From NCBI RefSeq assembly GCF_000176915.2, contig NC_014844.1:558001-622000 (forward strand): DNA of 64,000 bases, written 5' to 3'. Source of the DNA: Pseudodesulfovibrio aespoeensis Aspo-2. GTDB lineage: Bacteria > Desulfobacterota > Desulfovibrionia > Desulfovibrionales > Desulfovibrionaceae. Under the pieces are notes generated by a model. That model saw only the letters and a list, made by a program, of their open reading frames with translations. It did not search any database and was not told the origin of the DNA. Positions 45,056 through 62,952 of this stretch are shown in pieces. How positions within the stretch are numbered: the stretch's first letter is position 1; the number at the start of each line of letters is the position of its first letter. Position numbers and translations under genes: made by a program.

Positions 45056-45309
45056 GGAGAAACGCCTCCCCCGGATATGGATCGCGAGGATCGGGGCGGG
45101 GCTGTTTTCTGAATCTTTCTTTCTGACCGTAGCTGCCTGCCCGTGAATCCCGGTGGAGTTTTTCCCGGTCGCGATTCAGTTATTACCGATCGGGGTGGAA
45201 TTCCCGCCCTGGCCCCTGCATTGTCCTCGTGTTCCGCTCCAATGCGGCGATCAAAGCGGATCGGGGACGCCATGCCCGGCGTCTCCTTCTTTGCCAAGCG
45301 AGGTATTCA
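45056..45309. other. Intergenic region carrying tandem operator A
   Basis: The 254-bp gap between the AraC gene and the first ABC gene contains the two-copy box at 45162-45199 and no gene. A third partial copy (GAATCCCGGTGGAG) lies just upstream at about 45146. Confidence 0.6.
45162..45199 (+). promoter_or_regulatory. Tandem operator box A
   Basis: TTCCCGGTCGCG (45162-45173) and TTACCGATCGGG (45183-45194), with starts 21 bases apart, followed by GTGGA. It shares the pattern with boxes at 48941-48979 and 62918-62952. It sits 111 bp before the first ABC transporter ATG. The two helical-turn spacing of near-identical sites is typical of AraC-family binding. Confidence 0.6.
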
Positions 45310-47127
45310 ATGCGATCACAGGAAGATTGTTCGGGCTGCGGGCAGGAACATGTCGGTTCCGCCCGGCATCGGGAAGAACGGATTCCCGGCATTTGGGAGC
45401 TGATGCGCCCGGTGCGGGCGGGCATCCGCACGGCCATAGCCATGTCGGCCATTGGCTCGGTGGCCGGGTTGGCCGGAGTGGCCGCGCTGGCCCTGGTGGT
45501 CACGGCGTTGCTGGGTCACGATCCCCGGCTCTGGGTCTGGGTGTGCCTGTCCATCGGGCTGACCCTGGTCAGCATCCTGCTGCGGGTGCAGGCATTCACC
45601 GTCTCCCACCTGGCGGCCTTCAAGCTGGAGGTCAGGCTGCGTACCGGACTGACGGACCACCTGGCCCGGATTCCCCTGGGCTATCTTCTGGGGCAGGGGT
45701 CCGGGGTCATCACCAAGGTGGTGCAGGACGATGTCAAGAACCTGCACGCGTTCGTGGCGGACAGCACGCCGTTGTTGGGCCGGGGCGTGGCTACGCCCGT
45801 GGTCACGCTGGCCCTGCTGCTGGCCATAGACTGGCGGCTGGCGCTGGTGGCGCTCGGCGTGCTGCTGGTCGGCGCCCTGGCGGTGTGCCTGTGCATGCGC
45901 GGCAAGACCGAGCTGCAACGCCGCTATGACGCGGAGCGGGAACGGATCAACGGCACGGTGGTTGAGTTTGTCCAGGCCATGCCCGTGGTGCGGACCTTTG
46001 ACGACGGCGCCGCCTCCTTTGGCCGCTACCAGGCCGCCCTGGACGGATTCAAGGCGACCATGTCCGAGTGGCTTCGGGTCTCCGGCACCAGCGGCAAGCT
46101 GGCCATCACGGTGCTTGCCCCTATGCCCACCCTGCTGGCCCTGACGCTGGGCGGGCTGATGCTCTACCACGGCGGTGATCTGGATTTCGCCTCCTGGGCC
46201 GCAGTCCTCCTGCTTGGAACAGGCATGGCCGAATCCCTGGCCCCGCTCATGTGGCTCAACTTCTTCATCCGCAAGGCCAACGCCAGCGCGCGCCGCATCC
46301 ATGAGCTCATGGCCGTGCCCGAGCTGCCCGCCTCGGTCAGGGAGACCCTGCCGCAGGACGCGTCCGTGACCTTTGAGAACGTCAGCTTTGCCTACGAAGG
46401 CCGGGATGACGACGCCCTGATCGACATCGGCTTCACGGTGCCAACCGGGACCGTGACAGCCCTGGTCGGTCCGTCGGGCGCGGGCAAGAGCACGGTGGCG
46501 CGGCTGATCCCTCGTTTCTGGGACGTGCGCCGGGGCGCGGTACGGATCGGCGGGGCAGACGTGCGCGACATGACCCCGCAGACCCTGATGGGCAACGTCT
46601 CCTTCGTCTTTCAGGACGCATTTCTTTTCCACGACACCATTGCCGCCAACATCCGCATGGGCCGTCCCGACGCCTCCATGGAGGAGGTGGAACAGGCCGC
46701 CCGCGCCGCCCAGGCGCACGACTTCATCAGCGAACTGCCCAACGGATACGAGGCCATGGCCGGGGAGCGCGGCACCCGGCTCTCGGGCGGACAGCGCCAG
46801 CGCATCACCATCGCCCGCGCCATCCTGCAGGGTTGCCCTGTGGTGGTCCTGGACGAGGCCACGGCCTTTGCCGATCCGGAAAATGAGGCGGCGCTCATCG
46901 CGGCGCTGGCCAACCTGATGAAGGGACGCACGGTGATCATCATCGCACACCGTCTCTCCACCATCCGCGACGCCGATCAGATCGTGGTTCTGGACTATGG
47001 GCGGGTGGCGGAATCAGGCCGCCATGACGGCCTTGTGGCGGCGGGCGGTGTCTACGCCCGCCTTTGGGACAGTTACGAGCGGGCGCGCGGCTGGACATTG
47101 GGCCGCGGCGTCGATGCAGAAGCCTGA
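45310..47127 (+). CDS. ABC half-transporter of the YbtP/IrtA siderophore group
   Basis: The 605-residue protein from the ATG at 45310 (GAGG upstream) has six membrane helices (about residues 30-310) and an ATPase domain (about 345-585) with Walker A 'GPSGAGKST', Q-loop 'VFQDAFLFHDTIAANI', signature 'LSGGQRQR' and Walker B 'VVLDEATAFADPENE'. The 'DEATAFADPENE' phrasing is characteristic of YbtP, YbtQ and IrtA, which are exporter-fold proteins that import ferric siderophores. A short Cys-rich N-terminus ('CSGCGQEH') is odd. It is followed by its partner 13 bp later. Together they should form the inner-membrane heterodimer for the ligand taken up by the TonB receptor. Confidence 0.9.
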   Translation: MRSQEDCSGCGQEHVGSARHREERIPGIWELMRPVRAGIRTAIAMSAIGSVAGLAGVAALALVVTALLGHDPRLWVWVCLSIGLTLVSILLRVQAFTVSHLAAFKLEVRLRTGLTDHLARIPLGYLLGQGSGVITKVVQDDVKNLHAFVADSTPLLGRGVATPVVTLALLLAIDWRLALVALGVLLVGALAVCLCMRGKTELQRRYDAERERINGTVVEFVQAMPVVRTFDDGAASFGRYQAALDGFKATMSEWLRVSGTSGKLAITVLAPMPTLLALTLGGLMLYHGGDLDFASWAAVLLLGTGMAESLAPLMWLNFFIRKANASARRIHELMAVPELPASVRETLPQDASVTFENVSFAYEGRDDDALIDIGFTVPTGTVTALVGPSGAGKSTVARLIPRFWDVRRGAVRIGGADVRDMTPQTLMGNVSFVFQDAFLFHDTIAANIRMGRPDASMEEVEQAARAAQAHDFISELPNGYEAMAGERGTRLSGGQRQRITIARAILQGCPVVVLDEATAFADPENEAALIAALANLMKGRTVIIIAHRLSTIRDADQIVVLDYGRVAESGRHDGLVAAGGVYARLWDSYERARGWTLGRGVDAEA

Positions 47128-47140
47128 GGGAGGATGAGCC

Positions 47141-48931
47141 ATGACTATAAGAACTGACGCGGTGCCGCCGTTGGCCGAAACGTGGAAAAGGATGCAACTG
47201 GCCAGCGGGGACCAGGTGGGGGCGCTGCGGACGTGCATGCTCTTCTCCATCCTGTCCGCCGTGGCCCAGGGGCTGGGCTTCGCCTGCTTCTATCCGCTGC
47301 TGGGGAATCTTCTGGCCACGCCCTCGGACTGGGACACGGTCTGCCTTTGGGCGGGCGCGCTGGCCGTGTGCGCCGTGCTCGACACGGCCTTTGTCTGGAT
47401 GTCCCGCCGTTTCGACTACACCGGCTGCATTGCCGAAGTGACCCACCAACTGCGGATCAGGCTGGGCGAGCAGCTTCGCCGGATGCCCCTGGAGAATCTC
47501 TACGACAGGCGCACAGGGGAGCTCTCCGCCGTGCTGACCGGCAACGTTGACGAGGTGGTCACGCCCATGGGGATTCTCTCCTCGGCCTTCCTGACCATCC
47601 TTATCACCCCGGCGGTGTCGGTGGCGGCCACGGCGCTGGTGGACTGGCGGCTGGCCCTGGCCATGGCCGCGGTCTTCCCGCTGGCCCTGCCGCTCTATTA
47701 TTGGCGGCGTCGCAGCTCGGGCCGGTCCATGCGCACCCTTGCGGCGGCCCACGCCAGAACCAACTCCGAGATGATCGAATATGTCCAGGGGCTGCCTGTG
47801 CTCAGGGCCACCAACCAGGTGGGCGGGCGGTTCGAGCGGCTGCGGGCCGCCCTGGCGCATCTGCAAGAGGTCCAGAAAGAGGCGCAGCTGCGGGCCGTGT
47901 GGCCGGGCGTGCTTTTCTCCTCCCTGGTCCAGATCGGGATCATCGTGGCCCTCTCCCTTGGCGTGTGGTTCATCCTGGCCGGGACGCTGGACGTGGCCGT
48001 GCTGGTGGCGCTGCTCATCGTGGTCGTGCGTTTCAGCGAGCCTCTGGCACTGATCTACGGGCTCAGTCCGGTGTTCGACTACATGGAGGCAGGCTTCGAG
48101 CAACTGGAAAAGCTGTTTTCCGTGAGACCCCTGCCCGTGCCTGAATCCGCCAAGACCCCGCAGCGGTTCGATGTGGCCTTTGAGGGAGTCCGGTTCCGGT
48201 ATGCCGACACCGACGTGGACGTGCTGCAAGAGGTGAGCTTCAGGCTGCCCGAACGCTCCCTCACCGCACTGGTCGGGCCGTCGGGTTCCGGCAAGACCAC
48301 CATCACCAAGCTGATCATGCGCTACGCCGACCCCCAGGCGGGGCATGTCCGCATCGGCGGGGTGGACGTGCGGGACATGGAACCCAGGGCGCTGATGGGC
48401 TGCGTTTCCGTGGTGTTTCAGGATGTCTACCTGTTTGACGACACCATCCACGCCAACATCCTCATGGGTCGGCCCGGAGCCACCGACGCCGAGGTGGAGA
48501 CCGCGGCCAGGGCCGCGCACTGCCACGAATTTATCACCCGACTGCCCGACGGCTACCGGACACGGGTCGGCGATATCGGCGGCTGCCTGTCCGGCGGCGA
48601 GCGTCAGCGCATCAGCATCGCACGGGCCATTCTCAAGGATGCCCCCATCGTCATGCTGGACGAGCCCACGGCCGCCCTGGACACCGAGAGCGAGGTAGCG
48701 GTGCAGCAGGCCATCGACACGCTGGTGCGGGACAAGACCGTGGTTGTCATCGCGCATCGGCTTTCAACCATTGTCGGTGCCGACACCATCCTGGTCATTG
48801 ATGATGGAAAGCTCGTCCAGCAGGGCGGGCACGCCGAACTGCTGGCTCAGGCCGGACGGTATCGCAGCATGTGGGAGGCGCAGCAGGGCGTCAAGGACTG
48901 GCACTTTGTCAAGGCGGCCAAGGCCCGATAG
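47141..48931 (+). CDS. ABC half-transporter of the YbtQ/IrtB siderophore group
   Basis: This 596-residue exporter-fold ABC protein has transmembrane helices (about residues 25-310) and an ATPase domain with Walker A 'GPSGSGKTT' (about 380-388), 'VVFQDVYLFDDTIHANI', signature 'LSGGERQR' and Walker B 'IVMLDEPTAALDTESE'. GGGAGGATG precedes the ATG. Non-identical to its upstream partner, consistent with a heterodimer. Context between operators A and B, with a TonB receptor following, supports a metallophore import role. Export of a toxic metabolite is the alternative. Confidence 0.9.
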   Translation: MTIRTDAVPPLAETWKRMQLASGDQVGALRTCMLFSILSAVAQGLGFACFYPLLGNLLATPSDWDTVCLWAGALAVCAVLDTAFVWMSRRFDYTGCIAEVTHQLRIRLGEQLRRMPLENLYDRRTGELSAVLTGNVDEVVTPMGILSSAFLTILITPAVSVAATALVDWRLALAMAAVFPLALPLYYWRRRSSGRSMRTLAAAHARTNSEMIEYVQGLPVLRATNQVGGRFERLRAALAHLQEVQKEAQLRAVWPGVLFSSLVQIGIIVALSLGVWFILAGTLDVAVLVALLIVVVRFSEPLALIYGLSPVFDYMEAGFEQLEKLFSVRPLPVPESAKTPQRFDVAFEGVRFRYADTDVDVLQEVSFRLPERSLTALVGPSGSGKTTITKLIMRYADPQAGHVRIGGVDVRDMEPRALMGCVSVVFQDVYLFDDTIHANILMGRPGATDAEVETAARAAHCHEFITRLPDGYRTRVGDIGGCLSGGERQRISIARAILKDAPIVMLDEPTAALDTESEVAVQQAIDTLVRDKTVVVIAHRLSTIVGADTILVIDDGKLVQQGGHAELLAQAGRYRSMWEAQQGVKDWHFVKAAKAR

Positions 48932-48940
48932 ACGCAGGGT

Positions 48941-48979
48941 TTCCCGGTCGGGGCTGGTGTTTTTCCCGATCCGGGTGGA
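48941..48979 (+). promoter_or_regulatory. Tandem operator box B
   Basis: TTCCCGGTCGGG (48941-48952) and TTCCCGATCCGGG (48963-48975), starts 22 bases apart, followed by TGGA. It lies 64-102 bp upstream of the TonB-receptor ATG and directly after the end of the second ABC gene. The first copy is nearly a perfect palindrome, CCCGGTCGGG. Confidence 0.65.
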
Positions 48980-49042: not shown

Positions 49043-51208
49043 ATGAAACAGATATCGACTCGCTCCGCCACAGGGCGACCCGCTGGCCTGCCTTCGCGGC
49101 TGGCGGTCCTGGCCTTGCCGGTACTCGCCTTGTTCCTGTTGTGCGGGGGCGCGCTGGCGGCAGAGAGCGAAACGCGGCAGGAGGGCGCGGTCACGCTGGA
49201 GGCGGTCAAGGTCACGGCCAACAAGATGGAGGAAGACCCCATGGACGTGCCTCAGAACATCACCGTGATCAGCGAAATGGACATTGAGGAAAAGGGGATG
49301 AAGGACATCACGGATATCATCAAGACCGTTCCGGGCATGTCGTGCTCTCCGGACCACGGCGTAGCGGTCAACTTTCGCGGTCTGAACGCCTCGATGTTCA
49401 CCAACAACAACCCCGTGGCTCTGTATGTCGACGGCGTGGGGCAAAGCTCCCGCTACGGATTCGACACCTCCCTGGTCAATGTGCAGCGCGTGGAGGTGCT
49501 GCACGGCGCGCAGTCGACCCTGTGGGGCAAGGACGCCATGGGTGCGGTCATCAACGTCGTCACCAAGGATCCCACCAACACCTGGGATGGCAAGGTCGGC
49601 GGCGAGTACGGCAGCTGGCAGTATGGCAAGGGCATGGCCAGCCTCAACGGCCCCCTGGTTGAGGACAACCTGTTTTTCGGCTTCGGAGCCCAGTATCAGC
49701 GGGACCAGGGTTGGATCAAGAACGACTACCCCGGCACGGAGAAGGACGCCAACCGCCAGCGGCAGATGCGCGGCAACAGCTACCTGCTCTGGACGCCCGA
49801 AGGCAACCAGGATTTGAAGGTGCGCCTCTCTGTGCGTCATGACGAAGACAAGCGTTACTGGGGCGACATGTACAACATGGGCGCTGGCAAGACCCTGTCC
49901 TCGTTCAGCGCTTCCGATGCCAAGCACGTCAGCTATGAAGTGGACACCTGGACCAAGACCACTGATGATGTCCAAAGTGTGAAGGTTGACAATGAATTCA
50001 AAAGGTTCAACCTCGAATCCATCACCGCGCACAAGACCCAGAAGATTAAAGGCGTCTGGGACGGGGATCACGCCGATATCGCCGCCAACCTGGGGTTGAG
50101 AATGTTCGATGAGAACCACTCGGAGACCTGGTCCCAGGAGTTCCGGTTCTCCAGCCCCGAAACCAAAGGATTCCGGTGGACGGGCGGTGTGTATGCCGAC
50201 TCCGAGCGGCGCACCCAGGGGCCTTACGGCCAGCAGATGATCTCCGGTGGCATTCCCTATGACTACGATGCCCGCTCCAAGGCGCACAGCGATACCATGG
50301 CGACCTTCGGCCAGGCCATGGTCCCGTTGTGGGAGCGTTTCGAGCTGACGCTGGGCGGCAGGGCCCAGCGCATCAACAAGGGCATGGACATGACCTTCAA
50401 CCAGACCGATCTCTCCACCGGGACGCTGGTGTATTCCTATCACATGAGGGGAGACAAGACCGAGAACGCCCTGCTGCCCAAGGCCGCGCTGACCTACGAC
50501 TTCAATGACAACTGGGCCACCTATGTGTCCTACTCGCACGGATACATGCCCGGCGGATTCAACTACTTCGCCATGGCAGGCTCGGCGGACGAAAACTCCT
50601 TCAAGCCGGAGAAATCCATCAACTACGAGTGGGGTATCAAGGCCGGGCATGATTCGTTCCGTATGTCTGCGGATGTCTTTTACATGGATATCAAGGATAT
50701 CCATGTCTACAAGGTGGTGGGCGGCATGTTCGTCACGGACAACGCCAAGAAGGCGCACTCCACGGGAGCCGAATTCCAGGCCACCTATCTGCCCTGGGAG
50801 ACGGTGGAGTTGAGCGCCTCGGCCAGCGTGATCCGGGCCAGGTACGACGATTACGACACCGGCTCGCAGCAATTCAAGGGCTATCGGATCGAGCAAACTC
50901 CCGATTATTCCATTATGCTTGGTGCCGCCTACCATGATCCCAGTGGCTTCTATGCTCGGGTGGATGGCCGCCACTATGGCATTCGGACATTCTACAACGG
51001 GACCTCCATGGACTTCACCACAGCCGACCCGTACTCCGTGGTCGACGGCAGGATCGGCTACCGCGTTGATGGCTTTGATGTCTATGCCTACATGAAGAAC
51101 ATGTTCAACGAAGGCTATGTCACTGCGTATCGCGCCAACAGCCTGATGACCATCGCCGGCGTCGGGGAACCCCGGAACATGGGCGTCGGCGTGCTCTACA
51201 GCTTCTGA
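49043..51208 (+). CDS. TonB-dependent outer-membrane receptor
   Basis: The 721-residue receptor has an N-terminal signal (hydrophobic segment about residues 20-40, 'ALAAES'), a TonB-box-like 'LEAVKVTANK' (about 52-61), a plug domain (about 70-190, 'VPQNITVISEMDIEEKGMKDITDIIKTVPGM' region and 'VNVQRVEVLHGAQSTLWGKDAMGAVINVVTK') and a 22-strand barrel ending in 'GVLYSF'. AGGAGG precedes the start. It falls in the siderophore/cobalamin receptor class; the ligand is not evident. It is preceded by operator B and followed by DUF4198 and the LolA-like/barrel/RND genes, so it is the outer-membrane entry point of the locus. Confidence 0.95.
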   Translation: MKQISTRSATGRPAGLPSRLAVLALPVLALFLLCGGALAAESETRQEGAVTLEAVKVTANKMEEDPMDVPQNITVISEMDIEEKGMKDITDIIKTVPGMSCSPDHGVAVNFRGLNASMFTNNNPVALYVDGVGQSSRYGFDTSLVNVQRVEVLHGAQSTLWGKDAMGAVINVVTKDPTNTWDGKVGGEYGSWQYGKGMASLNGPLVEDNLFFGFGAQYQRDQGWIKNDYPGTEKDANRQRQMRGNSYLLWTPEGNQDLKVRLSVRHDEDKRYWGDMYNMGAGKTLSSFSASDAKHVSYEVDTWTKTTDDVQSVKVDNEFKRFNLESITAHKTQKIKGVWDGDHADIAANLGLRMFDENHSETWSQEFRFSSPETKGFRWTGGVYADSERRTQGPYGQQMISGGIPYDYDARSKAHSDTMATFGQAMVPLWERFELTLGGRAQRINKGMDMTFNQTDLSTGTLVYSYHMRGDKTENALLPKAALTYDFNDNWATYVSYSHGYMPGGFNYFAMAGSADENSFKPEKSINYEWGIKAGHDSFRMSADVFYMDIKDIHVYKVVGGMFVTDNAKKAHSTGAEFQATYLPWETVELSASASVIRARYDDYDTGSQQFKGYRIEQTPDYSIMLGAAYHDPSGFYARVDGRHYGIRTFYNGTSMDFTTADPYSVVDGRIGYRVDGFDVYAYMKNMFNEGYVTAYRANSLMTIAGVGEPRNMGVGVLYSF

Positions 51209-51291: not shown

Positions 51292-52179
51292 ATGAAAAAG
51301 CTACTTTTTGTCCTCTTCTGCCTGGTCTTTGGTACAGCGGTCAGCGCGCAGGCGCATTCGGTCTGGATCAACAACTTTGTGTCCGAGGCGCACCAGCCGC
51401 CCCATTCCATTGTCTCCATCGGCTGGGGGCATGCCATGCCCATGGACGACATCCCCAACTCCCCCAACGGGCGCATCCTGCTGGAGAGCTTCCAGGTGAT
51501 CGATCCGGACCTGAACCGGACCGACTTGCGCACGCCTGCCGCGGACGAGAGCAAGCCGTCGCAGGTCACGGCCAATTTTGACGTCTTCCCCGGTGATCTG
51601 GCCGTGCAGAAGGTCGCGCTGAAGAAAGAGAGCAAGCCCGGCGTATACCAATTCAGCGCGGTTTCCGTGCCCACCTTCTACACGCAGTATCTGGACAAGG
51701 GCGGTCGCCAGCGTATCGCCCTCAAGCCCCGCGACCAGGTCAAGGACATCGACAAGCTACTCATGTCGGTCAAGTTCCAGGCCTTTGCCAAGTCCTATAT
51801 GACCGTGGGTGGCCAGTGGACCCAGCCCAAGCCCCTCGGGCACGGCCTGGAGATCACTCCGGTCACGGACCTGAGCAACCTTCGCGTGGGTGACCTGGTC
51901 CAGGTGGAGGTGCTGTTCAACGGCGAACCTCTGAGCGTCACGGCCAAGAGCGTTGACTACATCACGGCCTACAGCGCCGGGTTTGGTCAGAGCGATCATT
52001 TCTCCCTGCAATCCTACATCATGCAGGGCAAGGCCCAGTTCCGCGTGCAGTGCGCCGGGCAGTGGATGGTCAGCGTCAACCACAAGGAAGACGTGACCAG
52101 CGACGGCCCCATGAAGGAACTCTCCGGCAAGGCGGACCAAGTGTACCACGGCGCGAGCCTGACCTTCACCGTCAAGTAG
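51292..52179 (+). CDS. Periplasmic DUF4198-like protein
   Basis: This 295-residue protein has a signal peptide (about residues 1-21, ending 'SAQAHS'). The mature protein begins with His and Trp ('HSVWINNF'), as in DUF4198/NikM-like proteins thought to bind metal ions or metal complexes through the exposed N-terminal His. 'RVGDLVQVEVLFNGEPLSVTAKSV' is a typical beta-sandwich strand set. It follows the TonB receptor by 83 bp, suggesting it handles the metal or ligand in the periplasm. A UUCG hairpin follows. Confidence 0.85.
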   Translation: MKKLLFVLFCLVFGTAVSAQAHSVWINNFVSEAHQPPHSIVSIGWGHAMPMDDIPNSPNGRILLESFQVIDPDLNRTDLRTPAADESKPSQVTANFDVFPGDLAVQKVALKKESKPGVYQFSAVSVPTFYTQYLDKGGRQRIALKPRDQVKDIDKLLMSVKFQAFAKSYMTVGGQWTQPKPLGHGLEITPVTDLSNLRVGDLVQVEVLFNGEPLSVTAKSVDYITAYSAGFGQSDHFSLQSYIMQGKAQFRVQCAGQWMVSVNHKEDVTSDGPMKELSGKADQVYHGASLTFTVK

Positions 52180-52192
52180 CCTCCTCCCTCTG

Positions 52193-52214
52193 GCCGGGGG
52201 CTTCGGCCCCCGGC
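52193..52214 (+). terminator. UUCG-loop hairpin after the DUF4198 gene
   Basis: GCCGGGGGC-TTCG-GCCCCCGGC, nine perfect pairs, begins 14 bp after the stop codon. It lacks a T-run, so it may be an RNA processing or partial termination site separating the receptor unit from the LolA-like/RND unit. Confidence 0.55.
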
Positions 52215-52277
52215 TCCTCCGGGGAGACCCGGTTTTCATTCGACCCTCAGCTTATATCCGACAAGGAGACGTGCGAC

Positions 52278-54328: not shown

Positions 54329-54337
54329 GGAGCGGAT

Positions 54338-56674
54338 ATGTTGAACATAGGCAGGATCAACGCGTGGTTTCATTCTTTTGGCGGGTCGGTCATCCGGTTC
54401 AGGTGGCTGGTGTTCGCCGCCTGCGCCGTCCTGACGATCGCAGCCGGGTCCGGGCTGCCGCAACTCAAGGCGGATGTGGACCAGGACAACTGGTTCATGG
54501 AGGACGACGCCCTGCTCAAGGCCAAGGAGCGCATGGAACACATCTTCGGCAACGAGGACTTCTGCGCGGCCCTGGTCACGGTGGACGACATCTTTACTCC
54601 GGAGAACCTGGGGCTGCTCAGGGAGTTGGGTGACGAACTCCTGGAGCGCGTGCCTTACGCGGACGATGTCATGTCCCTGGCGGACATGGAGTTCACCGAA
54701 GGCGTTGAGGGCGGCATCAGCATCGAGGATCTCGTGCCGGAGAGGATCCCCACGGACCCGGCAACCCTTGAGGCCCTGCGGCACAAGGCGCTGTCCAAGA
54801 CCTCGCTGAAAAACCGGATGGTCTCGGCGGACAGCACCGAGACCTGGCTCATCCTGCGGCTGAAGCCGCTGCCCGGCAACCTCGACGGAGAGGATCCGGT
54901 CGTGACCGTGGGGCGGCTCTTCAGCGAGGTGGTTAACCAGCCCCGGTACGCACCCCTGAACATCAAGGCCGCCGGGCTGCCCGTCGTCTTTGTGGACAAG
55001 ATGGACTTCTTTGCCAAGGAGACGCCCCGTCTGATGGGCATTTCCCTTCTGTTCACCGTGGTGGTGCTCTTCGTCCTTCTGCGCAACCTGCGGGGAATCC
55101 TCTTCCCTCTGGTCACGGTTCTGTGCGTGCTGGGCATCGTTTTCGGGGTGCAGGGCTGGCTGGGCATCCGTACAGACCCGTCGGTCATTTTCATGCCGGT
55201 GTTCATCACCCTGGCGGTGTCCATCGGGTATTCCATCCACCTGTTCAACCACTTTAACGTCGAGTTCCGCAGGACAGGGCGCAGACGGGAATCCCTGATC
55301 CTGGCCGTGGAGGAGGTGGGCTGGCCGTTGGTGTTCAGCGCGCTGACTACGGTGGCGGCGCTGGTCTCATTCCTGTTCATTCCGCTTCGGCCCATCCGCT
55401 GGGTGGGCCTGACCTCCGCCTCACTGGTTTTTCTCGCCTGCGTGATCGTCCTGACCCTGCTCCCCGCGCTGCTCAGTTTTGGCAGGGACGGGACGCCGGA
55501 GGCTGAAAAGGCTGATGCTCGCGAAAGCCGCATCCAGCGGCTCATGGGGTGGCTGGCCGGTGTCTCCCTGAGGCGGCAGAAGCTCGCTCTGATTGTCCTT
55601 GCCGTCGGCATGGGCGTATGCTTGGTCGGCACAAGCCGTATCGACGTGTCCTTTGACGTTCTCAAGACGTTCGGGCGCAAGGTTCCCTACGTGGACCGCA
55701 TCTACAGCGTCGGCCAGTCCCAGGTGGGCTCGCTCTATTCCTACAATCTGGCCTTGGAGTTCGACCAGCCAGGCGCGGCAAAGGATCCGGACAACCTGCA
55801 AAAGTTCGACCAGCTGGTGGCAGAAATAGACAACCTGGAACTGACCAAGAAGACCACGTCCCTGCTCCAGATTCTCAAGGATCTCAATCAGGTCATGCAC
55901 GAGGGCGATCCTGTCTGGTACAGGCTGCCCGAGAGCCGCGACATGGTGGCCCAATTGCTTCTGCTCTACGAGAACGCCGGCGGCGACGAGGTCGAGCGCT
56001 GGATCGACTATGACTACCAACGTCTCAAGCTTCAGGTGGAGATGGGGCACTACAACTCCGGGGAGGCGGCTCGCGAACTTCACTGGATCAGGGAGGAAGC
56101 CGCTAGGCTCTTTCCGGACGCCCATGTGGTGCTGACCGGCTCAATCTCGCAATACACGGTCATGCAGGACTATGTCTCCTTTGGCCAGATCAAGTCCTTC
56201 TTCATCGCCTTCACAGTGGTCACGCTGCTGCTGATGATCGTCTTCGGCAGCCTGCGCATCGGGCTTATCGCCATGATCCCGAACATCGCCCCGGTCCTTG
56301 TGGTGGGGGCGATCATGGGGTTTGCGGACATCCCGCTCGATCTGGTCACCGTGACCATCATGCCCATGCTGCTCGGGCTGGCAGTGGATGACACGATCCA
56401 TTTCATCAACCATAGCCAGCTCGAATTCGAGCGATGCCGCGACTATGCGCTGAGCAATCGCCGGACGTTCCTCGCCGTGGGCGGGGCGTTGCTGATGACC
56501 ACCGTGGTGCTGACCCTCAACTTCTCGGCCTACATGGTCTCGGTGGTCAATATATTCGTCAGCATGGGGTTCCTGGTGGGGGCCGGTCTGTTCGCCGCCC
56601 TGGCAGCCGACTTTTTCATCACCCCGGTGCTGCTCTCCATGACCAAGCCCTTTGGTCCTGAGCGGCGAGGGTGA
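54338..56674 (+). CDS. MMPL/RND-family inner-membrane pump
   Basis: The 778-residue protein has two repeated halves, each with a large periplasmic loop (about residues 45-215 and 445-620) and six helices, the last five after each loop. Charged or polar residues in helix 4 and 10 regions ('AVSIGYSIHLFNHFN' and 'LAVDDTIHFINHSQ') are the proton-relay positions of MMPL proteins. No adaptor (MFP) or TolC gene is adjacent. Instead a LolA-like protein and a barrel precede it, so it probably hands a lipid-like substrate to the LolA-like carrier. The distance between this pump and the TonB2-type operon is 143 bp with a Fur-box-like site. Confidence 0.92.
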   Translation: MLNIGRINAWFHSFGGSVIRFRWLVFAACAVLTIAAGSGLPQLKADVDQDNWFMEDDALLKAKERMEHIFGNEDFCAALVTVDDIFTPENLGLLRELGDELLERVPYADDVMSLADMEFTEGVEGGISIEDLVPERIPTDPATLEALRHKALSKTSLKNRMVSADSTETWLILRLKPLPGNLDGEDPVVTVGRLFSEVVNQPRYAPLNIKAAGLPVVFVDKMDFFAKETPRLMGISLLFTVVVLFVLLRNLRGILFPLVTVLCVLGIVFGVQGWLGIRTDPSVIFMPVFITLAVSIGYSIHLFNHFNVEFRRTGRRRESLILAVEEVGWPLVFSALTTVAALVSFLFIPLRPIRWVGLTSASLVFLACVIVLTLLPALLSFGRDGTPEAEKADARESRIQRLMGWLAGVSLRRQKLALIVLAVGMGVCLVGTSRIDVSFDVLKTFGRKVPYVDRIYSVGQSQVGSLYSYNLALEFDQPGAAKDPDNLQKFDQLVAEIDNLELTKKTTSLLQILKDLNQVMHEGDPVWYRLPESRDMVAQLLLLYENAGGDEVERWIDYDYQRLKLQVEMGHYNSGEAARELHWIREEAARLFPDAHVVLTGSISQYTVMQDYVSFGQIKSFFIAFTVVTLLLMIVFGSLRIGLIAMIPNIAPVLVVGAIMGFADIPLDLVTVTIMPMLLGLAVDDTIHFINHSQLEFERCRDYALSNRRTFLAVGGALLMTTVVLTLNFSAYMVSVVNIFVSMGFLVGAGLFAALAADFFITPVLLSMTKPFGPERRG

Positions 56675-56710
56675 CGGCGGACTTTACATCAAATCAAAAT
56701 GGGCATAGGT

Positions 56711-56729
56711 GATGTTGAAAGTCATTATC
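56711..56729 (+). promoter_or_regulatory. Fur-box-like site upstream of the TonB2-type operon
   Basis: GATGTTGAAAGTCATTATC matches 15 of 19 bases of the classical Fur box, with the right nine bases nearly intact. It is 89-107 bp upstream of the DUF3450 gene ATG and in the only A+T-rich intergenic stretch of the area, so it probably overlaps the operon promoter. Confidence 0.6.
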
Positions 56730-56817
56730 GTCAGTGGTGGTGTCAAAGATATATGCCCAACCGTTCGGTAATTGAAGCAATAAACGTGGCGGTTCGTCAC
56801 TCGCAACTGAGGTGGAT

Positions 56818-57573
56818 ATGAATGTGGGGAAAATGGTGGCAGTGGCCGCACTGCTGTTGATGCCGGTCCTGGCCCGGGGGGCGGACACGCCTGTGGCGGT
56901 GCATGCGCAGATGGCCGGGGCCGTGGCGTCCGAGGCTGGCGCACAGGCGGCGTACAACCGCTGGTCCGACGAGAAGGCGGGAGTGGCCGACGAGATCCGG
57001 GACATGAAGGCTATGGACGACTGGCTGGAGTTCCAGAACAGAAAGTATGTAAAATACATAGAGAAACAACGCGCCACAATCGCCGAATTGGAGCGGCGGA
57101 AGGAAGAGGTCAAGCGGATCGCCATGGAGCTTGAGCCGTTTCTGGAGACCGTGGTCGATCGCCTGGAGGAGTTCGTGAACAGCGACCTGCCGTTTTTGGC
57201 TGAGGAACGCCGTCAGCGCATCGTCTTCCTGCGCGCCTCTCTGGACGACTACCACCTGAGTCTCAGCGAAAAACTGCGCCGCGTGTTCGAGGCGCTGCTT
57301 GTGGAGACGGAGTACGGGCGCAACGTGGCCACCGTTTCCCAGGCGCTGGAACTCGACGGGATCCCGACCCAGGTCACGGTCTTCCGGCTGGGGCGGACCG
57401 CGCTCTTCTATCAGGCTGCCGACGGGTCTTCCGCCGGATTCTGGGACCAGGAATCCCAGTCCTGGAGTCCGCTGGACCAGGGGGTGGCCCGCACCCTGCG
57501 CCGGGCTCGGGAAATGGCCGAGCGCAAGCGCGCCGTTGAACTTCTCGAACTGCCGATCGGAGCCGCACAATGA
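56818..57573 (+). CDS. DUF3450 periplasmic coiled-coil protein (TtpB-like)
   Basis: The protein has 251 residues from ATG 56818 (GAGGT five bases upstream; a GTG two codons earlier is less likely). Signal peptide about residues 1-20. The mature part has long heptad-rich helices ('YIEKQRATIAELERRKEEVKRIAMELEPFLE') and 'DLPFLAEERRQRI', characteristic of DUF3450. In Vibrio-type TonB2 systems a DUF3450 protein precedes TtpC, ExbB2, ExbD2 and TonB2, and the same order is seen here. It overlaps the TtpC gene by 4 bp. Its exact job is unknown; it is thought to help the TonB2 complex reach large substrates. Confidence 0.9.
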   Translation: MNVGKMVAVAALLLMPVLARGADTPVAVHAQMAGAVASEAGAQAAYNRWSDEKAGVADEIRDMKAMDDWLEFQNRKYVKYIEKQRATIAELERRKEEVKRIAMELEPFLETVVDRLEEFVNSDLPFLAEERRQRIVFLRASLDDYHLSLSEKLRRVFEALLVETEYGRNVATVSQALELDGIPTQVTVFRLGRTALFYQAADGSSAGFWDQESQSWSPLDQGVARTLRRAREMAERKRAVELLELPIGAAQ

Positions 57574-58997
57574 AGACCATCATCATGACCTTTGTCGCCG
57601 CCGTGTTTCTGGCGATTCCGGCCCAGGCCCAGGCCCCGTGGCAGCAGGTGGCCCAGCAGGTGGCCGCAGTGGCCCGGCAGGCCCGGGAAAACGCCGACCA
57701 GACCAAGACCATCATCGAGGGAGAGCGCCGGGAGATCATGGCGGAACAGGACTCCCTCAAGGCGTCCATCAACGCGCGCCAGAAGCGGTTCGACGCCCTC
57801 AAGGCAGAGTACGAGAGCTTGCTGGCGCGGGAAAGGGAGTTGCAGGAGGAGCTGGCAGCGCAGGATCACGAGTTGAAGACCATCGACGGGGCCATCCGCA
57901 CCGCTGCCAAGCAGGCGCGCGACTACTTTCACGAGAGCCTGACCACGCCTGAATTCCCGGAGCGCGGGACCGTGCTGGCCACCGTGCTGGAACCGGACAA
58001 GTTTCCCGGCCTTCAGGGCATTCAGAGCCTGCTCACCCTGTTCCTGGACGAGTTGCGGGCCTCGGGTTCCGTGACGCGGCGCACAGGCGGGTTCATCGGC
58101 CCGGACGGCAAGGACAGGAGCGGCGAGCTGCTGCGGGTGGGTACTTTCACCATGGCTTATCGCCAGCCCGACGGACACATCGGTTTTTTGCGGCCCAACA
58201 GCGACGGCAGCAGGCTGACCGCAGTGCAGGGCGATCCGGGATGGACTCTTTCCGACATGATGGCCGATTATTTCGACGGCAAGGGGCTGTTGTTCCCGGT
58301 GGACATCTCCAACGGCGCGGTGTTCAGCCGCCTGGCCCGCCAGCAAACAGGCGTGCTGGAGTGGCTGAGCTCCGGCGGGTTGCTGGTGTGGCCCATCATT
58401 CTGGTGGGCGTGGCCGCCCTGATCCTGGTGGTGGAGCGTTTCTATTCCCTGAGCCGGATCCGGGGCAACTCGGCCCGGAACATGACCACCATCCTGGAAA
58501 TGGTCAACAGGGGGCAGTGGAAGGAATGCCGCAGGTTCTGCCAGGAGCAGAGCAGCTATCCAACCTGCCGGATCATAAACCACACACTTCAGTATCTGGG
58601 GAACACGCGTGAGATCATCGAGAACGCCTTTCAGGAAGGGTTGCTCAAGGAGCTGCCCATGCTGGAGCGGTTCCTGCCCACCCTGAACGTGCTCGCGGCC
58701 GTGGCGCCGTTGCTCGGACTGCTGGGCACCGTGACCGGCATGATCAACACCTTCCAGATCATCACGGTGTATGGCACCGGCGATCCGCGCATGATGTCCG
58801 GCGGTATTTCCGAGGCCCTGATCACCACCCAGCTCGGCTTGGCCGTGGCAGTGCCCATCATGATCCTGCACCATGTGCTGGAGAGGCGGGTGGACAGGAT
58901 CGTCGGCGACATGGAGGAGAAGGGAACCGGTTTTGCCGTGGCGCTCATGAAGGTCGGCAAGATCAAGACGCGGGAGGAACTTGATGTCGCTGCATAA
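57570..58997 (+). CDS. TtpC-like MotA/TolQ/ExbB-family protein with periplasmic N-domain
   Basis: This 475-residue protein has a signal peptide (about residues 1-20), a coiled-coil periplasmic domain (about 25-260), then an ExbB-like three-helix membrane part (first helix about 268-290, later helices about 375-400 and 415-440: 'LNVLAAVAPLLGLLGTVTGMINTF', 'SEALITTQLGLAVAVPIMIL'). This long-N form is TtpC of TonB2 systems, needed in Vibrio for TonB2 function. It overlaps the ExbB gene by 14 bp. Confidence 0.92.
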   Translation: MKTIIMTFVAAVFLAIPAQAQAPWQQVAQQVAAVARQARENADQTKTIIEGERREIMAEQDSLKASINARQKRFDALKAEYESLLARERELQEELAAQDHELKTIDGAIRTAAKQARDYFHESLTTPEFPERGTVLATVLEPDKFPGLQGIQSLLTLFLDELRASGSVTRRTGGFIGPDGKDRSGELLRVGTFTMAYRQPDGHIGFLRPNSDGSRLTAVQGDPGWTLSDMMADYFDGKGLLFPVDISNGAVFSRLARQQTGVLEWLSSGGLLVWPIILVGVAALILVVERFYSLSRIRGNSARNMTTILEMVNRGQWKECRRFCQEQSSYPTCRIINHTLQYLGNTREIIENAFQEGLLKELPMLERFLPTLNVLAAVAPLLGLLGTVTGMINTFQIITVYGTGDPRMMSGGISEALITTQLGLAVAVPIMILHHVLERRVDRIVGDMEEKGTGFAVALMKVGKIKTREELDVAA

Positions 58998-59604
58998 TCT
59001 TGGCGAACAATTGGTGGATTATTTTCAGGCCGGGGGCAGCATCATGCTTCCCCTGCTGGTCATCTCGCTTGTCATGTGGACCCTGGCCATTGTCAAGGGG
59101 CTGCGCTTTCTGAGCGAACGTCGCAGGGAAAGAACCCCGGAGCGCTGTCTCGACTTGTTCAGAGGGGAAGCCGGTGTGTGCAAGGCAGGACTGGCGCAGT
59201 GGCAGTGGGACATCCTCTCCCAGTATCTGGAGCAGCGGTGCGACGATCCTGAACTCAACCGCGACATGCTCGATGCCATGCGCATGCGCCAGGAGATCAA
59301 GGCCATGCGCTACATCGGCACCATCTTGCTCCTGTCTGCTGTGGCGCCGCTGCTTGGGCTGCTCGGTACCGTGACCGGCATGATCACCACCTTTGATGTC
59401 ATCTCCGAGCTGGGGACCGGCAATGCGCGCGCCCTGGCCTCGGGCATCTCCGAGGCCCTGGTGACCACGCAGAGCGGTTTGGTGGTTGCGGTTCCGGGGT
59501 TGGTGCTCGGCGGCTTCCTGTTTCAGCGGGCGCAGAAGATGAAGGGCCGCATGGAACTCTTCTGCATCGGCCTGCAGCACCAGACTGAAGTGACGCCAAA
59601 CTAG
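58984..59604 (+). CDS. exbB: ExbB-family proton-channel protein
   Basis: The 206-residue protein from the ATG at 58984 (GGGAGG six bases upstream) has three helices of the ExbB/TolQ type: about residues 18-38, 117-140 ('AVAPLLGLLGTVTGMI') and 155-175 ('SEALVTTQSGLVVAVPGL'). It couples the proton gradient to TonB together with the ExbD after it (8 bp gap). The TTG codon just before the ATG is not needed. Confidence 0.95.
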   Translation: MSLHNLGEQLVDYFQAGGSIMLPLLVISLVMWTLAIVKGLRFLSERRRERTPERCLDLFRGEAGVCKAGLAQWQWDILSQYLEQRCDDPELNRDMLDAMRMRQEIKAMRYIGTILLLSAVAPLLGLLGTVTGMITTFDVISELGTGNARALASGISEALVTTQSGLVVAVPGLVLGGFLFQRAQKMKGRMELFCIGLQHQTEVTPN

Positions 59605-59612
59605 GAGGATCC

Positions 59613-60023
59613 ATGCGCAGTATCCGGTATTCGCGCAGCAGGGGGTCGCGCCGTAGCGAGATCAACATGACCCCGCTCATCGACATGGTGTTTATCCTGC
59701 TTATCTTCTTTATCGTCACCACCAGCTTCGTTCGCGAATCCGGAGTGGACGTGGAGCGGCCTTCGGCCGAGTCCGTCGAGACCAAGGAAAAAGCCAATGT
59801 CCTGTTGGGACTGACCAGTGACGGGCAGATATTCGTCGAGGGCCGCCCTCTCGACATCCGGTCCGTGCGCGCCTACATGGAGCGTTTCCTGGCTGAGGTT
59901 CCCAACGGCTCGGTGGTCATCGTGGCCGACAAGGAAAGCTCCACCGGCAACGCCGTGCAGGTGCTGGACCAGTGCCGCATGGCCGGGGTCAAGAACATCA
60001 GCATCGCGGCAAGGAAGCAGTGA
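59613..60023 (+). CDS. exbD: ExbD-family proton-channel protein
   Basis: This 136-residue protein has a short cytoplasmic N-terminus and one membrane helix (about residues 22-45) bearing the essential Asp24 ('MTPLIDMVFILLIFF'), then a periplasmic domain. AGGAGG precedes the ATG. Its TGA overlaps the ATG of tonB, so translation is coupled. Confidence 0.96.
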   Translation: MRSIRYSRSRGSRRSEINMTPLIDMVFILLIFFIVTTSFVRESGVDVERPSAESVETKEKANVLLGLTSDGQIFVEGRPLDIRSVRAYMERFLAEVPNGSVVIVADKESSTGNAVQVLDQCRMAGVKNISIAARKQ

Positions 60024-60682
60024 TGGCCGTGCGCGACAGGGGCGCGGGGGAGTTCATGCTGTCCTGCCTGCTGGCCGTCTTTGTGGCCGGTCTGCTGTAT
60101 GTGGGAGTCCTTCTGCTCAACGAGGCCCCGCCGCCTGACGGGATGATCGTGGTCGAGGGGGCTGTCCGCCTGGCCCAGCCGGAGCGCGACCGGACCGAGC
60201 CCGAACTGCGACGCAAGAAGCTCGATGAGGCCAAGCCGCCTGAAGAGTTGCCCAAGACCTTCACTTCCCGGTCGGACAACCGGCCTGCCAAGCCGCTCAT
60301 GACCATGAGCGTCCCAGGTTTTTCGGCAGACCTTCATCCGGGTATCATGGGTGGCGTCGCCCTCCCTGCGGGCGGTTTCGGCAGTATCGGCTTTTCCATG
60401 GACGAGGTGGACGACATCCCGCAGGTGGTCAGGAGCGTTCCGCCGGACTATCCCTATGTGGCCAAGCGCAACCGGGTGGAGGGCGAGGTCGTGGTCCGCA
60501 TGCTGGTGGACAGCGAGGGTCGCCCGCAGAAGCTGTCCGTTCATTCCTCAACCCCGGCAGGGGTGTTTGACGAGGCCGCCCTGGGCGCGGCTGGACGTTG
60601 GCGCTTCAAGCCGGGCCGGTACAAGGGGAAGGCCGTGGACACCTGGGTTCTTCTTCCCTTTGTTTTTGAGTTGAAGCCATGA
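60023..60682 (+). CDS. tonB: TonB energy transducer (TonB2-type, short spacer)
   Basis: The 219-residue protein has an N-terminal membrane helix (about residues 11-33), a short linker lacking the long Pro-Glu/Pro-Lys repeats of E. coli TonB, and a C-terminal TonB domain (about 135-219: 'DYPYVAKRNRVEGEVVVRMLVDSEGRPQ', 'RWRFKPGRYKGKAVDTWV'). The short spacer is typical of TonB2 partners, which rely on TtpC to bridge the periplasm. It overlaps ExbD by three bases and the TPR gene by four bases. Confidence 0.93.
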   Translation: MAVRDRGAGEFMLSCLLAVFVAGLLYVGVLLLNEAPPPDGMIVVEGAVRLAQPERDRTEPELRRKKLDEAKPPEELPKTFTSRSDNRPAKPLMTMSVPGFSADLHPGIMGGVALPAGGFGSIGFSMDEVDDIPQVVRSVPPDYPYVAKRNRVEGEVVVRMLVDSEGRPQKLSVHSSTPAGVFDEAALGAAGRWRFKPGRYKGKAVDTWVLLPFVFELKP

Positions 60683-61851
60683 GCATGAAACGCATCCTTT
60701 TCTTGGTGTTGGCCATTGTTGTTGCCGCCGTGCCCGCATACGCCGGGGAGAGTCTTCCCCCGCTGGCCCGGCAGGCTCTGCACACGGCGCAGGTGCGGAT
60801 GGACGCCGGGCAGTTTGCCGACGCCGCGCTGGTCCTGCGCGAATACATGGCCCAGGCCGGGGAGACGGTCCCCAGCCACATCTACCTCATGCTGGGGAGT
60901 GCCCACCATCAGAACAACGACAGAAAGAAAACCCTGGACGCCTTTCAGGCCGGCCTGAAAGCCTACCCGGACAATGACCAGCTTGCCCGCAACTGCGCCG
61001 TGGCCTGCTACGAGCTGGGGCGCCATGCCGATGCAGGCCGCCTGTTCGAGAAAGCCTACGCGCTCAAGACGCCAAGAGATCCGGCCCTGTTGTTCCATGC
61101 GGGATCGGCCTACTACAGCGGGGAGGATTTCTCCGCAGCGGCCCGGGTGCTGGAACGTCTCCTGGCGGATCAGGCGCAGCCCGAAAAAGACTGGGTGCGC
61201 CTGGCGGTCCACGCCCACCTGGAGGCAGGCCTGTCCGAAAAAACCGAGGCGATTTTGAGCCGCTATCTGGCGATCAATCCCGATGAGGCTCCCTATTGGG
61301 AACTGCTGGCCAAGCTGCACATGGACCGGGAGGAATACGCCAAGGCGGGTGCGGCCCTGGAAATCTGCTACCGTCTGCGCGAGCCTTCGGGCAAGGAGTT
61401 GGAACGGCTGGCCTCGCTGTACGCCTATTCCGATGCTCCGCTCATGGCTTCGGCCACGCTGCTGCGGGCCAGGCCCGACTCCGCGGACATGGAGTACGGA
61501 ACCAGAATCGCCCGCCTGTACACCGCTGCCGGACGACCGGATGAGGCCATGCGCCTGCTTTCCAGATATGACCGATCAGCCTCGCTGGCAGGGAAGAAGG
61601 GAAGGATTCTCTACGACGCCCGCCGGTTCCGGGAGGCCGAGGCCGAACTGGGCGAGGCGCTGGGCCAGGGCGATGGAGCTGCCGAGAACGTGTACCTACT
61701 CGGCATGTGCGCCTGGGAGCGGCGGGATTGGGGGGCCGCCAGGGACAATTTCATGAAACTGCTGGGTGACAAGTCCTATTCACGGCTGGTCAAGGTCCCG
61801 CTTGTCGTGATCGAGGACATAGAGACCGCCCGCAGGGAGAGCGGCGACTAG
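60679..61851 (+). CDS. Periplasmic TPR protein of the TonB2-type operon
   Basis: The 390-residue protein has a signal peptide (about residues 1-22, 'VPAYAGE') and eight or more TPR-like helical pairs ('ADAALVLREYMAQAGETVPSHIYLMLGSAHHQNND', 'AGRLFEKAYALKTPRDPALLFHAGSAYYSGED'). Vibrio TonB2 loci carry an equivalent TPR gene at the same end. It probably scaffolds TtpC-TonB or the receptor. It overlaps tonB by 4 bp and ends the operon. Confidence 0.9.
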   Translation: MSMKRILFLVLAIVVAAVPAYAGESLPPLARQALHTAQVRMDAGQFADAALVLREYMAQAGETVPSHIYLMLGSAHHQNNDRKKTLDAFQAGLKAYPDNDQLARNCAVACYELGRHADAGRLFEKAYALKTPRDPALLFHAGSAYYSGEDFSAAARVLERLLADQAQPEKDWVRLAVHAHLEAGLSEKTEAILSRYLAINPDEAPYWELLAKLHMDREEYAKAGAALEICYRLREPSGKELERLASLYAYSDAPLMASATLLRARPDSADMEYGTRIARLYTAAGRPDEAMRLLSRYDRSASLAGKKGRILYDARRFREAEAELGEALGQGDGAAENVYLLGMCAWERRDWGAARDNFMKLLGDKSYSRLVKVPLVVIEDIETARRESGD

Positions 61852-61854
61852 CGA

Positions 61855-61890: not shown

Positions 61891-61894
61891 TTGG

Positions 61895-62719
61895 TCATGC
61901 TCCGGCGGGGTTCATCTGATAGTGCAGGATTCTGAACGCCTTGGCAAAGGCGGGGATGCGGGCCATGACCCTGCTCAGGAAGTCCCAACGGCGCGGTTCC
62001 TTGTCCATATAGTATTCCACGCTGTTCAGTGAAAGGTTGTAGGCCCACAGCTCCAGGCGCTTGTCCTCGTCCATGGCCCACAAAAACCGCGCCCTGGTGT
62101 GTTTGATCGTGTCGTGCCGGGAGGAGATCCGGCAGCCAAAACCGGTGCAGGCGTCAAAGAGCAGCTCCCCCGGAGCCAGGACCTCCGCGATCCGTTTGAT
62201 GAGCGGTCGGACCGCGTCTTCGGAGAAGTACATGAGGACGCCCTCGGACAGGACCAGGATGGGCGCGTGCGGGTGTTTGTCCCTGATCTCCCGCATCCAG
62301 GCCGGGTCGAACATGGAGCGGCGCACCGAGATGTTGCGCTCGTCTGGGGGCAGGAGCTGGTCGCGCAGCGCCATGACCTCCGGGAGGTCGAGGTTGTAGA
62401 AAATCCCCCTGCCAGGGCCCAGGCGGTTGGCGCGGCTGTCCAGCCCGCAGCCGATGCTGACGATCACGGGATCGTCGTGGGCGTCGATGAACCTCCGGGT
62501 GATCCCGTCGAAGTGTTTGACGCGCAGGCACACGCCCACCTGGCTGCGCGTGGCCTTGTCGTATTTGGAGAAGTCGTAATCCAGGCTGCCCACGATGCGG
62601 CAGGCGTCGGGGTCCGAGATGATGGCGTCCGGCCTCCCAGTCTCCAGGCATCGCATGTACAGGGGTATGAAGAGGGTGTCCGCCACTGCGTCCGTGATGT
62701 TGGTGGTGATGGCTTGCAT
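61895..62719 (-). CDS. LCM-family class I methyltransferase associated with the uptake locus
   Basis: The protein has 274 residues from the ATG at 62719 (AAAGGAG upstream on the minus strand; the frame upstream has no homology). It has the LCM/PCMT-type motif 'VSIGCGLDSRANRLG' (about residues 88-102), 'YNLDLPEVMALRDQLLP' and 'LVLSEGVLMYFSEDAVRPLIKRI', as in leucine-carboxyl and polyketide O-methyltransferase proteins. It faces the TonB2-type operon and has the Fur-like palindrome and operator box C upstream. Being an orphan without a synthase, it may modify an imported ligand or tag it for release of metal. The target is unknown. Confidence 0.88.
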   Translation of the reverse strand: MQAITTNITDAVADTLFIPLYMRCLETGRPDAIISDPDACRIVGSLDYDFSKYDKATRSQVGVCLRVKHFDGITRRFIDAHDDPVIVSIGCGLDSRANRLGPGRGIFYNLDLPEVMALRDQLLPPDERNISVRRSMFDPAWMREIRDKHPHAPILVLSEGVLMYFSEDAVRPLIKRIAEVLAPGELLFDACTGFGCRISSRHDTIKHTRARFLWAMDEDKRLELWAYNLSLNSVEYYMDKEPRRWDFLSRVMARIPAFAKAFRILHYQMNPAGA

Positions 62720-62842
62720 GTCTGCTCCTTTGACGCGCGCACAGGGGGCGTTGCGTCTGCTCTGTCGTGATGAAACCCGAAATGCTCTGCACAAAACACA
62801 GCTGAGGTCGTCGTGGTCAGCTGTTCTCAACAGCCAATGGCC

Positions 62843-62873
62843 GCATTTGAAAATGACATTCGAAATCAAATGC
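62843..62873. promoter_or_regulatory. Interrupted palindrome, weak Fur-box-like site
   Basis: GCATTTGA (62843-62850) and TCAAATGC (62866-62873) are perfect inverted arms around a core with AATGACATT. The 19-mer at 62849-62867 matches 13 of 19 Fur-box bases. It lies about 125-155 bp upstream of the methyltransferase ATG. Confidence 0.4.
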
Positions 62874-62917
62874 TGTCAACGGCCACAGGGTTGAAACAAG
62901 GGTAGGGCGCAGAAATA

Positions 62918-62952
62918 TTCCCGATCGGGTCAGCCGATTCCCGACCGGGTGG
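62918..62952. promoter_or_regulatory. Tandem operator box C
   Basis: TTCCCGATCGGG (62918-62929) and TTCCCGACCGGG (62938-62949), starts 20 bases apart, followed by TGG. The first copy contains the perfect palindrome CCCGATCGGG. It is the same element as boxes A and B, here lying upstream of the methyltransferase in inverted orientation relative to that gene. Confidence 0.65.

Follow-up and report, generated by a model that had tools for sequence, protein, structure and literature searches.

A tandem direct-repeat box at three sites of an uptake locus in Pseudodesulfovibrio aespoeensis as a candidate operator of an AraC-family regulator

Introduction

Which protein reads the three near-identical sequence doublets that lie within one uptake locus of Pseudodesulfovibrio aespoeensis Aspo-2, and what might it do there? 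The locus is part of a 64,000-nucleotide stretch of contig NC_014844.1 (assembly GCF_000176915.2, positions 558,001–622,000, forward strand), which is called the window hereafter and to which all coordinates refer unless a genome position is named. It comprises a gene for an AraC-family regulator of 351 amino acids (44000–45055, plus strand; araC below), genes for a pair of ATP-binding cassette (ABC) importer subunits and a TonB-dependent receptor, a long operon remainder and a methyltransferase gene on the opposite strand. We propose, with a probability of roughly 0.8, that the doublets are binding sites of this regulator, which would act as an activator, akin to YbtA, PchR and FoxR, of a YbtPQ-FyuA-like locus for metal-siderophore uptake.

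Results

A preliminary description of the window had reported doublets at 45162, 48941 and 62918, whose 12-mers start 21, 22 and 20 bp apart and are followed by GTGG, GTGG and TGG, respectively, and all three are present as described. Site 1 (45162–45199, plus strand) is a candidate direct-repeat operator of the form TTCCCGGTCGCG-N9-TTACCGATCGGGGTGGA, with units TTCCCGGTCGCG at 45162 and TTACCGATCGGG at 45183 that each have one mismatch to TTCCCGRTCGGG. Site 2 (48941–48979, plus strand), a second candidate direct-repeat operator located 5' of the receptor gene, has the form TTCCCGGTCGGG-N10-TTCCCGATCCGGGTGGA and combines an exact copy of TTCCCGRTCGGG at 48941 with a one-mismatch copy at 48963. 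The same combination is found in the variant doublet of site 3 (62918–62952, plus strand), with the exact unit at 62918 and the one-mismatch unit at 62938. Lone 12-mers are ordinary in this GC-rich window, where 27 occur at a tolerance of two mismatches, compared with an expectation of 21.4 and with 13 of 100 shuffles giving at least as many, and 52 copies with up to one mismatch were counted in the genome (3,629,109 bases). It is the pairing that is significant. The exact pair pattern, which leaves out site 1 because of its mismatches, has two matches in the window (sites 2 and 3) and none in 100 shuffles, and same-strand pairs with spacings of 18–24 occur three times in the genome, all at this locus, against about 0.0025 expected from the 52 single copies. 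A looser pair pattern, composed after the sites were known, has exactly three genomic matches, again all at this locus, and none in the reversed control. The earlier statement that there are no further full copies in the window thus extends to the entire 3.63-Mb genome.

We then compared the sites with a sequence-only profile made from 14 boxes of relatives and no site of the window. Scored on 150 of 1656 first-look candidates in the P. aespoeensis genome, with seven matches listed, it ranks site 2 as the top match of the genome (35.4 bits) and site 1 as the second (34.9 bits), and the third match falls to 14.8 bits. No further strong profile site, and none by the loose pair pattern, points to a wider regulon in this genome. 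A genome-wide scan had been proposed in the preliminary description; run with both the profile and the loose pattern, it returned no multitude of random copies, and the confinement of pairs and strong profile matches to this locus agrees with the regulon proposed there.

The box and the regulator gene share one distribution, as the tie suggested between them had implied. Among 345 genomes of the order, orthologues of the regulator (E ≤ 1e-30) occur in ten, own genome included, with identities of 41–58%. Profile matches of at least 22 bits occur in exactly those ten genomes; none of the other 335 has a listed match at or above that score, in a run whose stricter filters lose weak matches. The best match outside the ten scores 20.5 bits (E 0.0024 per genome), which is chance level for that many genomes. 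Under random placement the chance of such agreement is about 2e-19, a figure that ignores kinship and the genomes that supplied the model. In a phylum sample of 395 genomes, a regulator homologue at E ≤ 1e-40 was found only in the own genome; the nine known, better-scoring relatives are not in that sample. A search of plasmid records with the regulator yielded identities of 22–32% among the 25 of 564 matches listed, which were AraC-type or unlabelled.

Sites of at least 18.9 bits number 25 in the ten AraC genomes, and the 11 that lie outside the model all adjoin genes of the locus. Nine of them stand forward and upstream of the ABC pair (G000, G051, G063, G070), the receptor (G000, G063), a DUF4198 gene (G070) or a second methyltransferase gene (G062, G070), and two stand reversed upstream of the LCM-type methyltransferase gene. 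The G070 sites at the DUF4198 and second methyltransferase genes are near copies of G063 model sites. A box precedes the ABC pair in 10/10 AraC genomes and the receptor gene in all eight genomes, the own among them, for which the receptor start was retrieved. Boxes are found ahead of both in G021, G016, G013, G062 and G073, and ahead of the ABC pair, the receptor, DUF4198 and the second methyltransferase in G063 and G070, which also have a reversed box ahead of the LCM-type methyltransferase. The gene order of the P. aespoeensis locus is kept whole in G021, as far as MMPL in G016 and as far as LolA in G013, where the contig ends, and is rearranged in G063 and G070; in G051 the contig that carries the AraC gene does not extend far enough to include the ABC genes, and the box before ABC1 is on another contig. 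Taken together, the genome ranking, the same ten genomes and the same kinds of downstream genes make a lineage-specific regulon a well-supported prediction.

Several relatives show local variants of the locus. G034 (L062:7408–8624) has a deletion from within ABC1 (residue 268) to within MMPL (residue 619) and retains the AraC gene, the ABC box, the Exb/Ton genes and the methyltransferase although the ABC pair and the receptor are mostly gone. In G062, the region contains an additional DUF1302-LolA-MMPL set (L124:15203–19999). The second methyltransferase (Pfam Methyltransf_2), with its own box just before LolA, occurs in G063 (L080:1087–1132), G062 (L124:9117–9155) and G070 (L086:496–538) and suggests that methylation may belong to the pathway.

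Aligned, the boxes of relatives consist of two tandem units TTTTCCCG-N3/4-CGGGG, the second of which ends in GTGGA, its best-kept part; what is preserved is a direct repeat of about 21 bp ending in GTGGA. AraC/XylS-type operators have two direct half-sites spaced by about two turns of the helix, and the two-turn spacing noted earlier is upheld at 20–22 bp in the window and 19–24 bp in relatives. The palindromic core, which had been named as the recognised feature, was dropped, as its arms pair no better than shuffled columns: 76.8% of inverted pairs are matched in the 14 boxes of relatives compared with 77.3% after column shuffling, and none shows a change on both sides. The true register did outscore slid registers in this test, which is usual for a register derived from a consensus. 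Inverted symmetry that is not maintained in relatives favours an AraC-style direct-repeat operator and disfavours RNA hairpins.

The boxes also stand in a recurring relation to putative promoters. In 20 forward boxes (23 minus three G070 copies of G063 sites), the base 20 positions past GTGGA is A or T in 19, which none of 2000 shuffles equalled, and the best fit to TATAAT starts 19 bases past GTGGA, with 1% of shuffles as good. With this -10 offset and a 17-bp spacer, TGGA plus two bases fall at -35. At site 1, GTGGA is at the expected -35 and CATTGT (45219–45224) at the expected -10 position; at site 2, TGGACC takes the expected -35 position and CTACAC is the -10 match. The GTGG or TGG noted behind the doublets therefore probably has two roles, closing the second half-site and serving as the -35 element, as in a class II activator site.

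That the boxes precede the ABC pair and the receptor gene was correctly seen in the preliminary description; the third target needs rewording, in that the methyltransferase is encoded on the minus strand and site 3 lies 198 bp upstream of its likely ATG and, relative to the gene it precedes, is oriented oppositely to sites 1 and 2. Site 3 further deviates in its spacing of 20, its missing T-tract and one base fewer before TGG, and it was recovered by the exact pair pattern. It stands 38 bp upstream of a TTGACA (62874–62879), which together with a Fur-type box over the -10 region (62849–62869) makes up a putative methyltransferase promoter (62849–62879, minus strand). This promoter is kept in G021 and G034, where TTGACA and GAATGTCATTTTCA are conserved (three genomes with the own). 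A methyltransferase homologue is found near the locus in five relatives (G021, G034, G016, G063, G070). In G016 it stands behind MMPL in the same direction of transcription, where no box was seen; in G063 and G070, reversed boxes of 20.9 and 18.9 bits stand 5' of the LCM-type gene at 43 and 42 bp from TTGACA.

The regulator has a C-terminal double helix-turn-helix (Pfam HTH_18, residues 272–347, E 2.2e-19, 69.9 bits at a cut-off of 33.6; HTH_AraC, 38.3 bits at a cut-off of 26.6). Its DNA-binding half is strongly conserved: in the ten orthologues, 47 of the last 94 residues are invariant, compared with 35 of the first 257. Cysteines 72, 161, 214 and 281 are likewise invariant, the first three outside the DNA-binding domain, and a role in metal or metallophore sensing is conceivable for them. 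Upstream of araC, a putative promoter (43856–43896, plus strand) joins TTGACA (43856–43861) to a Fur-type box, TTGATAATGAAATTCAAAATCA (43875–43896), in a block that is kept in five aligned genomes (own and four closest relatives). The Fur-type boxes of the locus resemble the tandem dFUR boxes given for Desulfovibrio in the available part of an earlier study (PMC545781).

Directly downstream, the regulator gene adjoins YbtP-like, YbtQ-like and FyuA-like genes, which is the layout of a siderophore regulon. The YbtP-like ABC importer subunit (45310–47127, plus strand), one of two half-size transporters, has as its closest solved sequence 6p6i_A (E 2.3e-175, 588 bits, the next solved sequence reaching 423), a chain that we take to be YbtP. 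Side-by-side comparison of the upstream regions of relatives favours a start at ATG 45310, which follows a conserved ribosome site of the AGCGAGG type, over the listed GTG at 45229. For the YbtQ-like subunit (47141–48931, plus strand), the closest solved sequences are 6p6i_B (E 1.2e-172) and 8vsi_B, named YbtQ (E 2.5e-172), at 579 bits versus 446 for the next. The TonB-dependent receptor (49043–51208, plus strand) is closest to 4epa, a pesticin receptor that is presumably FyuA (E 6e-35; next solved sequence 1.4e-20), and scores 188 bits against NCBIfam TonB-siderophor, under the cut-off of 223.5. By Pfam, the remainder of the uptake operon (51292–61851, plus strand) encodes DUF4198, LolA-like, DUF1302, MMPL (resistance-nodulation-division, RND), DUF3450, two ExbB, ExbD, TonB and TPR proteins. 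The gene block ends with the S-adenosylmethionine-dependent methyltransferase gene of the LCM/TIGR00027 type (61895–62719, minus strand; Pfam LCM E 7.9e-13; TIGR00027 56.9 bits, under the cut-off of 93.55), which is convergent to the uptake operon and has its likely ATG at 62717–62719, after AAAGGAG.

A non-ribosomal peptide synthetase (NRPS) condensation domain was not found in the own genome, the search being confined to this one route of siderophore synthesis, and is present in three of the ten AraC genomes (G013, G051, G063). Given its absence here, the locus would most likely import metallophores made by other organisms. A phage-type integrase gene (40926–42104) is located about 1.9 kb upstream of araC, and no tRNA gene was found in 38000–64000. 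The locus may be an island that is, or once was, mobile, in agreement with its scattered occurrence in 10 of 345 genomes; no viral contigs bearing the ABC gene were found.

Outside the window, a paralogous AraC gene is located at genome positions 627961–628998 (minus strand; L067:11962–12999). Just downstream of it, about 5.9 kb past the window, is a weak related box of 14.8 bits that ends in AGGGGTGG (genome 627916–627950, minus strand; L067:11917–11951) and precedes genes for a CobW-type GTPase, an ABC ATPase, a solute-binding protein and a further TonB receptor. This may mark a paralogous regulon whose half-site is shared.

Discussion

We infer a half-site of about 21 bp, TTTCCCG-N3/4-CGGGGTGGA, two of which, on the same face of the helix, would be occupied by an AraC dimer. 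The second half-site of sites 1 and 2 would reach the promoter -35 element in forward orientation, as in class II activation, and at the methyltransferase gene the reversed box, about 40 bp upstream of TTGACA, would act in a class I-like manner. Iron starvation would free the araC and methyltransferase promoters from Fur, and the regulator, with an effector that is probably the imported metal-siderophore, would then turn on importer and receptor.

A number of observations weigh against this reading. Eight of the ten AraC genomes supplied the model and only G000 and G051 were recovered fully blind; as the genomes are kin in addition, the fair claim is two blind recoveries and none elsewhere. 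Full-length ABC1 occurs in 9 of 342 genomes, every one an AraC genome, and control genomes with the ABC gene and no AraC gene number 0 of 342, so that co-occurrence cannot single out the AraC regulator as the binder. The -10 matches of the single promoters at sites 1 and 2 are poor. The Fur-type box before araC was not seen by eye in the distant relatives G062, G073, G051 and G063, and the profile from relatives finds no box before araC within the window, so that autoregulation through the box is not indicated. At site 3, the units score 7.4 and 3.5 bits by that profile and are absent from the seven genome-wide matches; no box was found 5' of the methyltransferase gene in G021 and G034, which share the own arrangement; and the reversed boxes of G063 and G070 are near chance, ten listed matches in genomes without the AraC gene scoring 19.0–20.5 bits.

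Because the ABC gene is never found without the AraC gene, the boxes could serve another regulator, for example the paralogue about 6 kb past the window, with the neighbouring AraC gene travelling with the locus for other reasons; paralogues may share half-sites, and a related half-site does lie directly downstream of this one. We nevertheless judge another binder improbable. By Pfam, the AraC gene is the sole transcription factor gene among the window proteins scanned (44000 onward). It lies about 12 kb from the ABC genes in G063 and G070, with other cluster genes between, and the boxes persist there, as they do in G034, which keeps both AraC gene and box although little is left of the ABC pair and receptor at the locus. 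Moreover, AraC dimers suit tandem repeats of about 21 bp. A different kind of rival would make the units RNA hairpins, as in attenuators or terminators, or a mobile repeat rather than protein-binding DNA, as CCCGATCGGG units are self-complementary and sites 1 and 2 are close upstream of genes. The hairpin version was dropped on account of its unmaintained arms and the occurrence of the box in both orientations relative to genes, and a mobile repeat is at odds with a genomic total of just three pairs, confined to one locus; we regard either as very improbable.

The membership of site 3 is a separate matter. Lying 5' of a putatively Fur-controlled methyltransferase gene, the doublet could have arisen by chance or have degenerated, or it could be bound by the paralogue, and its low unit scores, its spacing, its reversed orientation and the lack of a box at this place in G021 and G034 are all compatible with that. 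The counterparts in G063 and G070 score so near chance that their support rests on their position; this position is shared, however, in that both are reversed ahead of the same gene at a nearly equal distance from TTGACA, and the pairing of an exact with a one-mismatch 12-mer occurs nowhere else in the genome beyond this locus. We therefore consider a place outside the regulon doubtful, and site 3 a probable member.

For binding of the boxes by the AraC regulator, precedents exist in several known systems. In the yersiniabactin locus, the AraC-type regulator YbtA goes with repeated sequences (RS) in the irp2, fyuA and irp6/ybtA promoters, according to the available parts of two studies (PMC5634559, PMC8725597). 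The present locus is similar in its AraC-type gene beside a YbtPQ-like importer and a FyuA-like receptor, its repeated sites before both and its Fur-type box, and differs from the YbtA system in the missing NRPS condensation domain and in a long additional operon that includes RND and TonB components; YbtA RS and the present boxes are likened by description. PchR of Pseudomonas aeruginosa is portrayed, in the accessible text, as an AraC-type activator with a siderophore effector and under Fur (PMC8725597), and the likeness, an AraC-type activator in a siderophore system with a predicted Fur link, is again one of description. FoxR, an AraC-type regulator predicted in 2004 for Desulfovibrio vulgaris and D. 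desulfuricans, belongs to a Fur-controlled ABC/ExbBD/TonB cluster in hosts for which the authors found no known siderophore pathway, as far as the available part of the paper goes (PMC545781). Likened by description, it resembles the present locus in an AraC gene, predicted to be under Fur control, that is linked to an ABC/ExbB/ExbD/TonB cluster; unlike the present one, the FoxR cluster begins with pqqL, and that part of the paper yielded no FoxR motif (PMC545781). No description of the present box was found in the literature searched, to which subscription papers were mostly external, so its absence from the literature is unproven. Fur-controlled siderophore loci in which AraC activators go with repeated sites are already known, and the operator sequence and the regulon are new; given the known biology of YbtA, PchR and FoxR, we class the box as a new operator of a familiar type and not as a new mechanism.

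The orientation of the boxes invites a further comparison. MarA acts as a monomer on a single marbox, unlike the two tandem half-sites of the present box, which suggest a dimer. The rule given for MarA, in the part of the source available, is that class II sites lie forward over -35 and class I sites reversed upstream (PMC12052159). Sites 1 and 2, forward over -35, and site 3 and the boxes of G063 and G070, reversed further upstream, would fit the pattern of MarA, SoxS and Rob in orientation, with promoter positions predicted from sequence. A single dimeric AraC activator might thus use the same tandem operator in two geometries, forward and fused to -35 or reversed and upstream, which would extend the class I/II rule of MarA to dimers on direct repeats. 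The locus itself would serve uptake alone, scavenging the yersiniabactin-like metallophore of others and perhaps methylating it; we offer this fuller picture tentatively, as a possibility more likely to fail in some part than to hold as a whole.

For the type of predicted AraC-controlled siderophore-uptake regulon to which Desulfovibrio FoxR also belongs, these results provide a testable operator and a list of genes. The seven of ten AraC genomes in which no NRPS condensation domain was found are probably importers of metallophores from other organisms. The mixed orientation is the most interesting part: the same box, forward at some promoters and reversed at others, would permit a clean test of how an AraC dimer contacts RNA polymerase.

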